Below are positions 47,938 through 53,214 of a DNA stretch of 64,000 nt, one piece after another. Numbering within the stretch: position 1 is the first letter of the stretch; each line of letters starts with the position of its first letter. The stretch is from Verrucomicrobiales bacterium (lineage in GTDB: Bacteria > Verrucomicrobiota > Verrucomicrobiia > Verrucomicrobiales > DEV007), in the NCBI GenBank assembly GCA_029213265.1, contig JARGNG010000005.1, forward strand, positions 124,001 through 188,000, read 5' to 3'. The notes beneath the pieces are model-generated. The model made no database searches. It saw only the letters and a list, made by a program, of their open reading frames with translations, and was not told where the DNA came from. Made by a program: the position numbers and the translations under genes.

Positions 47938-48822
47938 ATGGCAAATTTCGAAATGGATGGCGGCATCAAGATCTACCTTCGGGAGATCGGGAAGACCGCC
48001 CTGCTCACCCGCGAAGAAGAGGTGGAGCTCGCTGATCGCATTAAAAATGGCGATAAGGAAGCTCGTGCTCACATGATTAAGGCGAACCTACGTCTCGTCG
48101 TAAAAATCGCACAAGACTACGCGAACTACGGGTTGCCTTTGCTCGACCTCATTTCTGAGGGCAATATTGGCCTGATGAAAGCGGTGGAGCGCTTCGACCC
48201 CAACAAGGGCGGGAAACTCTCCACCTACGCAGCCTGGTGGATCAAGCAGTCCATCAAGCGGGCTCTGGCAAACCAGAGCAAGACGATCCGTCTTCCCGTC
48301 CACATGGTGGACAAAATTTCGAAGATGCGCCGTGTTGCCATGGTGCTCAGCGAAGAGCTTGGCCGCGAACCTACCGACGAAGAATTGTCGGAAGAAATCG
48401 GAATCGACCGCGCCAAGCTTTCGCATCTCAAGTCTGCGGCTCAGCGCCCGGCCTCTCTTGATGCCCCGATCGGCGACGACGACAGCACCCAATTCGGCGA
48501 GATCATCGGCGACGAGAAGGCGCTGACTCCCCTGGAGCTCCTGAGCCACAAGAACATGCACATGCAACTCGACGACCTCCTTGAGGTTCTCGACGAGCGG
48601 GAGCGAAAAATCGTCGATGCCCGATTTGGCCTGGGCGGGCAAAAGCCAAAAACTCTCGAAGAAGTGGGTCAGGAATTTGGCGTTACTCGCGAGCGAATCC
48701 GCCAGCTCCAGAACATCGCACTCAAAAAGCTGCGTCGCGCCCTTCAGAAAAAAGAGGATCCCGGACCACGCCCGCTCAGCAAGGCAGGGGAATCTGACGA
48801 CGACTTTTTCCGCGAGGAATAA
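47938..48822 (+). CDS. RNA polymerase sigma factor, sigma-70 group 1/2 type
   Basis: 294 residues, without the long region 1.1 of a housekeeping RpoD. Region 1.2 is 'DGGIKIYLREIGKTALLTREEEVELADRI'. Region 2 runs about 50-112, with 'DLISEGNIGLMKAVERFDPNKGGKLSTYAAWWIKQSIKRAL' containing the -10 recognition helix. Region 3 is 'KISKMRRVAMVLSEELGREPTDEELSEEIG', and region 4 ends in the -35 helix-turn-helix 'KTLEEVGQEFGVTRERIRQLQNIALKKLRRAL'. All DNA-contacting parts are present. The short N terminus and acidic tail (ESDDDFFREE) suggest a group 2 (RpoS/SigB-like alternative) factor, though in some PVC bacteria short SigA-type factors are primary. Convergent with the truncated subtilase. Confidence 0.93.
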   Translation: MANFEMDGGIKIYLREIGKTALLTREEEVELADRIKNGDKEARAHMIKANLRLVVKIAQDYANYGLPLLDLISEGNIGLMKAVERFDPNKGGKLSTYAAWWIKQSIKRALANQSKTIRLPVHMVDKISKMRRVAMVLSEELGREPTDEELSEEIGIDRAKLSHLKSAAQRPASLDAPIGDDDSTQFGEIIGDEKALTPLELLSHKNMHMQLDDLLEVLDERERKIVDARFGLGGQKPKTLEEVGQEFGVTRERIRQLQNIALKKLRRALQKKEDPGPRPLSKAGESDDDFFREE

Positions 48823-50487: not shown

Positions 50488-53214
50488 ATGCCTGCTCCCG
50501 CTTCGCTCCCTATCTGGAAAATTCACGACGACATCCTGCGCACGCTGCATGGTGGCAATCGCCTGGTGCTCGTCGCCCCAACGGGCTCAGGCAAGACCAC
50601 GCAGGTGCCGCAGATGCTGCTCGATGCGGGGATCACGGACGACAAGATGATCGTTGTCTTGCAACCCCGCCGCGTCGCCGCCCGCACCGTCGCCACTCGC
50701 GTTGCCTCGGAGAGGAAGTGCAAACTCGGCGCCGAGGTCGGCTATCAGATTCGCTTCGACGATCACACCAGCCCCGGCACCCGCATTGCTTTTGTCACCG
50801 AGGGCATCCTGCTGCGCTGGCTCCAGGATGATCAGACGCTGGCCCACATCGGTGCCGTCGTCTTCGATGAGTTCCACGAGCGGAGCCTGCTCAGCGATGT
50901 TGCGCTCGCTTTGGTGAAGAACTTGCAGCAGTCCCAGCGCCCCGATCTGGTCATGTTAGTAATGTCCGCCACGCTCGATGCCGAGCCCGTCGCGGCGTAT
51001 TTGGATGCTTGCCCGATCCTTATTTCCGAAGGGCAAAGCTATCCCGTGGAGGTGGGCTATCTCCCCCGCCCCGACCAGCGCGCCATCACCGTGCAAGCCG
51101 CAGAGGCCGTCGAGCGTATCATCAATGACAATGCCCCCGGCGACATCCTCGTTTTCATGCCCGGGCGCGGCGAGATCAACGGCACCCTGGATGCGCTGCG
51201 AAATTTGAGAACGCAGGAGCGCGTCGCCTGCATCCCTCTGCACGGTGCGCTGGAACCGCAGGAGCAGGACCGCGCCTTCGCTCCCAACGCTCTGCGCAAA
51301 GTGATTGTCGCCACCAATGTCGCCGAAACCAGCATCACCATCGACGGCATCCTCCACGTGGTGGACAGCGGCGTCGCCCGGGTGGCCCGCTACGACGCCG
51401 AACGCGGTATCGGCACGCTCCTGCTGGAGCCCATCAGCAGGGCCAGTGCCGACCAACGCAAAGGCCGCGCCGGCCGGACGGCATCCGGCTCCTGTCACCG
51501 CCTCTGGACCGAGGGCGGCCAGATGAACCGCGAGGAACGCAATACGCCGGAGATCCAGCGCAGTGACCTCGCCGAGGTCGTGCTGTTGCTGCACTCGCTT
51601 GGCATCCGCGAAGCCGCTACCTTTGACTGGCTGGACAAACCTGATCTGCAGGCCGTCGAACGCGCCGAGCTCCTGCTCACTATGCTCGGGGCATTGCCAG
51701 CCGGGACTGCTCATACGTTTCGAGTGAGCCGCCAGCGAAACTCGGCAGATACAAGGCGCCCGCCGATTCCAGCGGTGGGCGGTATAGATATAACGTCCGA
51801 TGCTGGGATCAAGAGCAACGCAGTAGCTGTCGAGTTTCGCAAGGATTCGCCGATAGGGCATGAGAAGTCCGGGCTGAATGCGGAACTTACACCCATCGGC
51901 CGCCAGATGCTGCGCCTCCCCATGCACCCGCGCTACTCGCGCATGTTGATCGAGGCCAGCCAGCGCGGTTGCGTGCCCGATATCGCCCTGTGTGCCGCAC
52001 TCGTCAGTGGTCGCGATTTGCTCACGCGTCTGAATCGCGAGGATGACAAAGCCAACACCGTCCGCGAGAGCTTCGAGGACAGCGAGGAGACCGATTTCGT
52101 GACCCTGATGAGTGCCTTCGACTTCGCGAAATCGAACCGCTTCCGTTTTGATCCCTGCCGCAGTCACGGCATCAACGCCCACGTCGCCCGTCAGGTGGAT
52201 GAAACCTGCCAACAGATTTTGCAGGTCGCCCACCAGCAGCGCCTCTACGACCGCAAGGCCACACCCGCCAGCCCGGCAAAAAACGACGAAGCCCTCCTGC
52301 GGAGCCTCATGGCCGGCTTCGTCGATCAGCTCGCGAAACGACGCGAACCCGGCAAACCCGGCTGCGACCTCACCGAGCGAAGGGAGGGCCAGCTCGTACG
52401 CGAAAGCGTGGTGCAGGAAGCCCAGTTTTTCGTCGCCGCCAATCTGCATCAAGTCCCCTCGCGCGGCGGCACCCCCTTGACTCTGCTCAGCCTCGCCACC
52501 GCGGTGAAAACCGCGTGGATCACCGAGATGTTCCCTCAGCATCTCAGCACCACCCTGGAGCACCTCTTCGACGCGAAGAACAAGCGCGTCGCCGTGATGA
52601 AACTCGTGCGCTACCGGGATCTCGTCATCGAGCAGAAGCCACAGCAAAACGATCTCGATCCACTCGCCAGCGGACGCTGCCTTGCCGATGCGTACGACAG
52701 CGGAGCCTTTGATCTACCGAAGATGGATCATCGAGTGAAGCAATTCATCGCCCGGGTGAACCTCGTCCACGCCACCCTGCCGGAACTGGAGTTTGCCCCC
52801 TTCGATGAAGCCGCGATCACTGCCTGCCTTGCCCGTGCCTTCACCGGCCTCACAGGGGTGAAGGAAGCCCAGGCCGCGCCGCTCCTCCCCGCCTTTCACC
52901 GCCATTTGGAAAAAGGGCAGATCAGTTGGCTGGATGAGTTGCTGCCCCTCTCCATCCCATGGGTCGACACGGGCAGCGTGAAAGTTTCCTACCTCAATGA
53001 GTCACCGGAAGCGCAGGTGAAACTGAAGGACTGCTTCGAGCTGGAAGAGCATCCCACTCTCTGCGAAGGCCGGCTCCCGGTCCTCCTCAACCTCTACCCT
53101 CCCAAGGGGAAATGCCTCGCCAGCACCACCGACTGGGCGCACTTTCGAGAGCGTGAATTGCCGAAGCATCGCAAAGTCCTCGCAGAGAAGTTCCCGAGTC
53201 ACCCGTGGATCTAG
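50488..53214 (+). CDS. hrpB: HrpB-type ATP-dependent DEAH helicase with in-frame insertion
   Basis: 908 residues from the ATG at 50488 ('MPAPASLPIWKIHDDILRTL'). The frame is open upstream to a GTG at 50335, but that stretch looks non-coding and HrpB proteins start near this Met. Motifs: Walker A 'LVAPTGSGKTTQVPQ', Ia 'LQPRRVAARTVA', DEFHE (DEAH-box variant) in 'VVFDEFHERSLLSD', SAT in 'LVMSATLDAEPV', 'VATNVAETSITIDGI', and QRKGRAGRTASG (motif VI). A helicase-associated domain and the HrpB C-terminal region follow. Role: RNA helicase; E. coli HrpB has no settled function. A 60-codon segment (51697-51876) is inserted between 'LGAL' and 'NAELTPIGRQM' and is absent from normal DEAH proteins. Confidence 0.9.
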   Translation: MPAPASLPIWKIHDDILRTLHGGNRLVLVAPTGSGKTTQVPQMLLDAGITDDKMIVVLQPRRVAARTVATRVASERKCKLGAEVGYQIRFDDHTSPGTRIAFVTEGILLRWLQDDQTLAHIGAVVFDEFHERSLLSDVALALVKNLQQSQRPDLVMLVMSATLDAEPVAAYLDACPILISEGQSYPVEVGYLPRPDQRAITVQAAEAVERIINDNAPGDILVFMPGRGEINGTLDALRNLRTQERVACIPLHGALEPQEQDRAFAPNALRKVIVATNVAETSITIDGILHVVDSGVARVARYDAERGIGTLLLEPISRASADQRKGRAGRTASGSCHRLWTEGGQMNREERNTPEIQRSDLAEVVLLLHSLGIREAATFDWLDKPDLQAVERAELLLTMLGALPAGTAHTFRVSRQRNSADTRRPPIPAVGGIDITSDAGIKSNAVAVEFRKDSPIGHEKSGLNAELTPIGRQMLRLPMHPRYSRMLIEASQRGCVPDIALCAALVSGRDLLTRLNREDDKANTVRESFEDSEETDFVTLMSAFDFAKSNRFRFDPCRSHGINAHVARQVDETCQQILQVAHQQRLYDRKATPASPAKNDEALLRSLMAGFVDQLAKRREPGKPGCDLTERREGQLVRESVVQEAQFFVAANLHQVPSRGGTPLTLLSLATAVKTAWITEMFPQHLSTTLEHLFDAKNKRVAVMKLVRYRDLVIEQKPQQNDLDPLASGRCLADAYDSGAFDLPKMDHRVKQFIARVNLVHATLPELEFAPFDEAAITACLARAFTGLTGVKEAQAAPLLPAFHRHLEKGQISWLDELLPLSIPWVDTGSVKVSYLNESPEAQVKLKDCFELEEHPTLCEGRLPVLLNLYPPKGKCLASTTDWAHFRERELPKHRKVLAEKFPSHPWI
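51697..51876. repeat. 180-nt inverted-repeat element inserted in frame in the helicase
   Basis: Exactly 60 codons lie between codons for 'LGAL' and 'NAELTPIG', which are contiguous in other DEAH helicases. The ends are inverted repeats of about 55 nt: left arm 51698-51752, right arm 51823-51876, matching 15 of 17 at the outer end (CAGCCGGGACTGCTCAT versus CAGCCCGGACTTCTCAT) and 16 of 18 at the inner end (GCGAAACTCG then CAG.TAC), with a diverged middle. The loop is about 70 nt. No stop in the helicase frame. It behaves like a Rickettsia palindromic element or a coding MITE. No clear target duplication. Confidence 0.8.

Follow-up and report, generated by a model that had tools for sequence, protein, structure and literature searches.

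Coding palindromes and related repeats in bacteria

The best-known coding palindromes are those of Rickettsia and Wolbachia. In both, palindromic units have been found in frame within conserved protein genes, where they are apparently tolerated (PMC10969869), and the Rickettsia palindromic elements (RPEs) are 105-146 bp in length, with a target duplication listed as unknown (PMC2229807). The MITE-like enterobacterial repeats ERIC/RU-1, RU-2 and RU-3 contain open reading frames and can be fused in frame within genes (PMC2759123). REPs measure 20-40 bp, and GTAG repeats have been reported for O. terrae (PMC3733652).

The element considered here lies in the window, that is, the whole stretch of 64,000 nucleotides of a Verrucomicrobiales genome (G000) that was analysed, where it interrupts an hrpB-type helicase gene. 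It is very probably an IS1380-type MITE that was moved in trans and is translated as a tolerated in-frame loop. With the coding palindromes of Rickettsia and Wolbachia it shares a palindromic unit lying in frame within conserved protein genes, a trait found in hrpB, in an M90 peptidase gene and in an APP1 phosphatase gene. In contrast to RPEs, it is longer, the class of its mobilizing enzyme can be identified (IS1380), a 4-bp target duplication is associated with its family, and it occurs in Verrucomicrobiota, Gammaproteobacteria and other hosts, not in Rickettsiales. It was not filed as an RPE because of these hosts and because the likeness is one of behaviour; as an analogy, the view that it works like an RPE holds. 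ERIC/RU elements are likewise small mobile sequences found in frame inside genes, but by their description they differ in hosts and lengths (127 bp for RU-1, 168 bp for RU-2). To our knowledge, they have no link to IS1380. REP/BIME sequences with RAYT tyrosine transposases (GTAG/CGTC) are also palindromic, dispersed and present in Verrucomicrobia, but identity with REP/RAYT (REPIN) is ruled out by the unit of ~182 nt, the IS1380 DDE partner and the target duplications. Complete IS1380-family ISs (NF033539, PF13701) in genomes G075, G022 and G014 have the terminal sequence and CTAG-like flanks in common with the palindrome, which differs from them in lacking a transposase and in being, over its entire unit, an inverted repeat of ~180 nt.

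A palindromic insert in an hrpB-type gene

The features of the locus are as follows (positions in the window).

50488-53214, + strand: hrpB-type DEAH helicase gene, from Pfam matches (HrpB_C, DEAD, Helicase_C, HA2_C) and alignment with orthologues
51697-51877 (181 nt), + strand: putative IS1380-type MITE including both flanking 4-mers, from its hairpin, its absence from 24 homologues and covariance-model relatives of equal length in congeners
51697-51700, no strand: left 4-mer CCAG, at the target-duplication position of the family (consensus CTAG), from a family-wide test of 4-mers
51874-51877, no strand: right 4-mer CTGA, aligned with CTCG (G032) or GTCG (G028) at the empty site
51698-51714, + strand: left terminal inverted repeat CAGCCGGGACTGCTCAT, from comparison with the ends of complete ISs
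51860-51876, - strand: right terminal inverted repeat, reverse complement CAGCCCGGACTTCTCAT, matching an IS1380-type end at 13 of 15 positions
51735-51840, no strand: inner stem and loop, with arms at 51735-51752 and 51823-51840

The gene comprises 908 codons and a stop, with its ATG start set against the 849-aa orthologue of G032, and its product matches HrpB_C with an E-value of 1.3e-17. The reading frame stays open across the whole inserted segment, and neither a stop nor a frameshift occurs in the 908 codons. The insert is placed at a turn between LGAL and DAEL, in the winged-helix/HA2 region, and sits within a 198.7-kb contig of an incomplete draft genome (93.5%, 182 contigs). A second HrpB-type gene, a paralogue on contig C54 of the same genome, was found by protein search to be without the insert.

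The element folds as one imperfect full-length hairpin with an RNA minimum free energy of -92.4 kcal/mol, compared with -60.4 +/- 4.3 for dinucleotide shuffles (z -7.38), none of which was equally stable among 200. The best ungapped pair of arms, 51735-51752 with 51823-51840, is 18 nt long and 89% complementary. When hairpin stability was corrected for GC content, the element ranked 2nd of 13,923 windows of 180 nt (1.26 Mb of the genome), which places it well beyond chance; the number of pairs in the longest hairpin was also tried as a measure, but did not discriminate. No Rfam family reached its gathering score on the element, the only match being a sub-threshold chance one outside it. In the left repeat, the AG...CTCA part of CAGCCGGGACTGCTCAT agrees with AGCCCGCATTTCTCA, an IS1380-type end, at 11 of 15 positions. 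The ends of this copy depart from the family consensus at 4/15 (left) and 2/15 (right) positions. The flanking 4-mers, CCAG and CTGA, also differ from each other and from the empty sites CTCG (G032) and GTCG (G028); a target duplication would once have been present here, its two 4-mers being no longer identical.

Uninserted orthologues and constraint on the helicase

Among 34 genomes of the genus, protein search retrieved two close orthologues, in G032 (91% identical) and G028 (86%), reading LGAL-L-DAELTPIG and LGAL-V-DAELTPIG, respectively, with a single residue at the insert site. At the DNA level, G032 has GCATTG-CTCG-ATGCGGAG where this genome has GCATTG-[181 nt]-ATGCGGAA, and G028 carries GTCG at the empty site. 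All 24 aligned homologues (these two and 22 more distant ones) have 1 or 2 residues at this position, against 60 here. This comparison places the insertion on this genome's own lineage, with a net gain over the uninserted orthologues of 177 nt, or 59 codons.

A preliminary description of the locus had proposed a palindromic segment in frame inside an HrpB helicase, with no stop in the frame of the gene; the full-length hairpin and the intact reading frame bear this out. Some of its details need adjustment. The segment was given as 180 nt (51697-51876), but reaches 51877 when both flanking 4-mers are counted; its imperfect arms, put at about 55 nt, were understated, with interrupted pairing extending nearly to the centre. 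Normal helicases do lack the segment, as had been stated, but LGAL and the following motif (given as NAELTPIG) are not contiguous in them, one residue (L or V) standing between LGAL and DAELTPIG. The estimate of about 60 added residues agrees with the 60 at this position, whereas the net addition over the orthologues is 59 codons.

The helicase gene stays under purifying selection. Relative to G032, dN/dS is 0.030/0.36 (~0.08) upstream of the insert and 0.056/0.36 (~0.16) downstream. Lineage-specific nonsynonymous to synonymous codon changes number 6:34 before and 10:25 after the insert in this genome, and 8:33 before and 14:36 after the corresponding position in the G032 orthologue, and this similarity indicates no relaxation of constraint. 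The age of the insertion is limited only by the total dS of 0.36 to G032, and if the insertion were very recent, a low dN/dS would be uninformative about tolerance. AlphaFold2 gives coil with a pLDDT of 20-25 for residues 404-463, flanked by well-predicted helices, in a model whose underlying alignment carries no information on the inserted segment, which is probably an unstructured surface loop. Judging from the intact and constrained frame, HrpB would carry some 60 extra residues, and their effect on helicase function would be near-neutral.

A dispersed family of palindromes

BLASTN of the 180 nt against 75 genomes of the host's taxonomic family returned only the element itself; short partial matches (L002-L004) proved on inspection to be unrelated to it. 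A first covariance model, for which the element was combined with its reverse complement, picked up only two further matches in the genus, of 182 and 183 nt, both intergenic, in G011 and G004. With these two copies added, a second model, by which the best 35 candidates per genome were scored so that counts are minima, detected the palindrome family in at least 21 of 75 family genomes and at least 7 of 18 genera, often in multiple copies. A DNA pattern scan of genome contigs yielded 46 stretches with the family, in records titled Verrucomicrobiaceae, Verrucomicrobiales or Akkermansiaceae, Gammaproteobacteria, Ca. Fermentibacteria, Ca. Eisenbacteria and Deltaproteobacteria. In G075, a gammaproteobacterial 3-Mb draft (record series JALUUZ), 248 matches to the end sequence were found, an extreme load. 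Many truncated, shorter (~66 nt) and longer composite versions that share only the ends were also seen in this genome (e.g. L108, L115, L120).

The relatives are diverged and scattered over many unrelated positions, in congeners as well as in other genera and phyla. The family consensus has the ends CTAGCCCGCATTTCTCA...TGAGAAATGCGGGCTAG and a unit of ~182-184 nt. In a comparison of 18 divergent copies, 36 of 53 predicted pairs had changed on both sides and yet still paired, which implies that the palindrome itself is maintained, either by selection on the hairpin or by arm-to-arm correction. The two arms of the consensus nevertheless show a conserved asymmetry. Inside the terminal repeats, different conserved motifs were read on the two arms across much of the family (TCGTCGCGAGACG vs GCAAGTCGCAGCAGA; AAGGCGCG vs GCGGAACGCAGC) in alignment A6, e.g. 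at L056:1525-1560 and L056:1620-1665, and these suggest sequence-specific recognition besides that of the ends.

In the genome of the hrpB copy, no second copy was detected by whole-genome searches or by the covariance model over stretches covering 21%; the end pattern with 3 mismatches occurred about twice as often as the control, and none of these matches revealed a second palindrome. Of 388 genomes of the phylum, only 3, its own included, carried the exact right-end 15-mer of the hrpB copy, and given this near-absence no recent donor subfamily could be identified. The family end sequence was not found in the open-licence papers searched.

These results also bear on the broader proposal of the preliminary description, a coding mobile palindrome resembling RPEs in a PVC-type genome. 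The host assignment fits the titles of the congeneric records bearing the family, and mobility is supported by the homologues without the segment, the dispersed diverged relatives and the affinity to IS1380-type MITEs. Homologous helicases sharing the segment, with no copies elsewhere, had been named as the case against it, and the opposite was found: the segment is absent from 24/24 homologues, and relatives of the palindrome lie elsewhere. A search for copies in this genome and its relatives had been suggested; only the relatives yielded them, and in diverged form, through the covariance model.

IS1380-type ends and 4-bp target repeats

In G075, ends 1.7 kb apart at locus L164 enclose a 485-aa IS1380-family transposase (NF033539, E 1.8e-121; PF13701, E 1.5e-156), and the ends of the palindrome family are identical to those of L164. 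They are also near-identical to the ends of L183 and L184 in the congeneric genomes G022 and G014, between which lie IS1380 transposase genes, with E 2.0e-112 and a single internal stop in G022 and E 8.5e-108 in G014. Loci L163 and L120, with ends at IS-like spacing, were rejected as further examples: they contain ordinary genes, not transposases. No IS1380 transposase was detected by the search in the own genome, a 93.5% draft.

Among 76 end pairs, some of which are alternative pairings of one copy so that fractions are approximate, 24 were flanked by CTAG on both sides. For the informative, non-palindromic 4-mers, 7 were identical as direct repeats and 1 as an inverted repeat only, which identifies CTAG as a preferred and duplicated 4-bp target outside the inverted repeat. 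Ends matching those of complete ISs, together with 4-bp direct repeats, make the palindromes non-autonomous IS1380-type elements, i.e. MITEs. The short unit, the lack of a transposase gene and the many dispersed copies (multi-copy in relatives) are those of a MITE; the terminal repeats match a complete IS1380 element, and the hrpB copy is linked to the family by the covariance model. No report joining IS1380, MITE and in-frame insertion was found in the open-licence papers searched.

In-frame copies in other genes

The commonest unit, both 4-mers included, is 184 nt and adds 60 codons (180 nt net). In G075, a copy (L095) lies in frame in an M90 (MtfA-type) peptidase gene, immediately ahead of the HEFAH zinc motif, and splits the Pfam peptidase domain into two stretches. 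At L098, a copy lies in frame in an APP1_cat phosphatase gene, close to where the domain ends. A third copy, L062 in G031, is a possible in-frame case in a lipoprotein signal region, without Pfam support. In-frame copies read as LARISH...EKCGL or a close variant, and the hrpB copy reads PAGTAH...HEKSGL in the same frame. Most copies in the sampled loci are intergenic: among 22 full-length copies from Gammaproteobacteria whose flanks were adequate, 2 are clearly intragenic and in frame, and the others show no convincing interrupted gene. Removal of the copy at L064:1501-1684 (G015:C1) joins an integrase-like frame in which the copy holds a stop, and this may be a disruptive insertion. Since most 184-nt copies have one open frame out of six, about 1 in 6 intragenic hits would be readable by chance, and the in-frame cases need no explanation beyond survivorship.

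Origin of the insert and alternative explanations

An IS1380-family transposase acting in trans would have put the MITE, of ~177-180 nt net, into hrpB, at a CTAG-like 4-bp site between LGAL and DAEL; the enzyme was presumably lost from this lineage or never resident in it. The segment would then be translated as a flexible surface loop of ~60 residues. In-frame copies would be survivors, those with a net length that is a multiple of 3 and a stop-free frame being tolerated and the rest purged. It is also conceivable, although rather unlikely, that coding tolerance was itself selected, giving a 'gene-safe' transposon that adds a harmless 60-residue loop across phyla. This idea draws on the commonest unit adding exactly 180 nt and on the LARISH...EKCGL frame being stop-free in most G075-type copies; full-length pairing would then persist through arm-to-arm correction or because transposition requires a hairpin.

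Trans-mobilization followed by tolerance has also to be weighed against readings of the hrpB locus alone. That the insertion inactivated the gene, leaving a pseudogene or a redundant second hrpB still open because the event is recent, is improbable: the C54 paralogue and the loose age bound (dS 0.36 to G032) would allow it, but nonsynonymous changes are no commoner than on the G032 lineage, the 908 codons hold no stop or frameshift, and the 59 added codons are in frame and stop-free despite the divergence of the element from the family consensus. Even less credit can be given to an ordinary insertion in the HrpB protein or the expansion of a low-complexity loop. The element is single-copy in its genome and the site is a turn with normal small length variation (1 or 2 residues in homologues), but such an origin is refuted by the dispersed relatives, which have equal length, lie at unrelated loci and show target repeats and IS1380-type ends, unless those covariance-model matches are spurious; it also accounts poorly for the hairpin (z -7.4) and for the closest orthologues being without the segment. 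The mRNA hairpin exactly at the insertion, a very stable one, might recall ribosomal bypassing, RNA excision or protein splicing, by which the mature protein would be freed of the segment; this is more doubtful still, plain read-through of a stop-free frame with a net length divisible by 3 needing no special mechanism, and no Rfam family having reached its gathering score at the hairpin. That the insert is an artefact of assembly or a chimera, in a draft metagenome of 182 contigs, is the hardest of all to credit, for it lies within a 198.7-kb contig, in frame and at the 4-bp target position of the family, and the assembly has no identical donor anywhere else.

With this case, the phenomenon of coding palindromes extends to Verrucomicrobiota and Gammaproteobacteria and is tied to target duplications and a transposase family that can be identified, which makes their origin and mobilization directly testable. 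In-frame copies also offer natural experiments on the tolerance of conserved enzymes to 60-residue insertions.

Other palindromes and a possible start codon

Another hairpin-rich stretch is present in the window at 48241-48420 (GC-corrected z about -3.4). A stronger intergenic palindrome of the same genome, at L265:6490-6590 (G000:C88:146490-146590), carries GGACAGAGCRGGAGCTCTRTCCTCC as an inverted pair, a motif with ~10 matches in 1.26 Mb of this genome; it turned out to belong to another, unrelated dispersed repeat family. In G011:C250, the apparent ATG of a YbeY-like reading frame is provided by the right end (GAGAAATGCGGGCTAG, L056:1666-1690) of a MITE copy upstream of it, and from this case such elements may also donate start codons.
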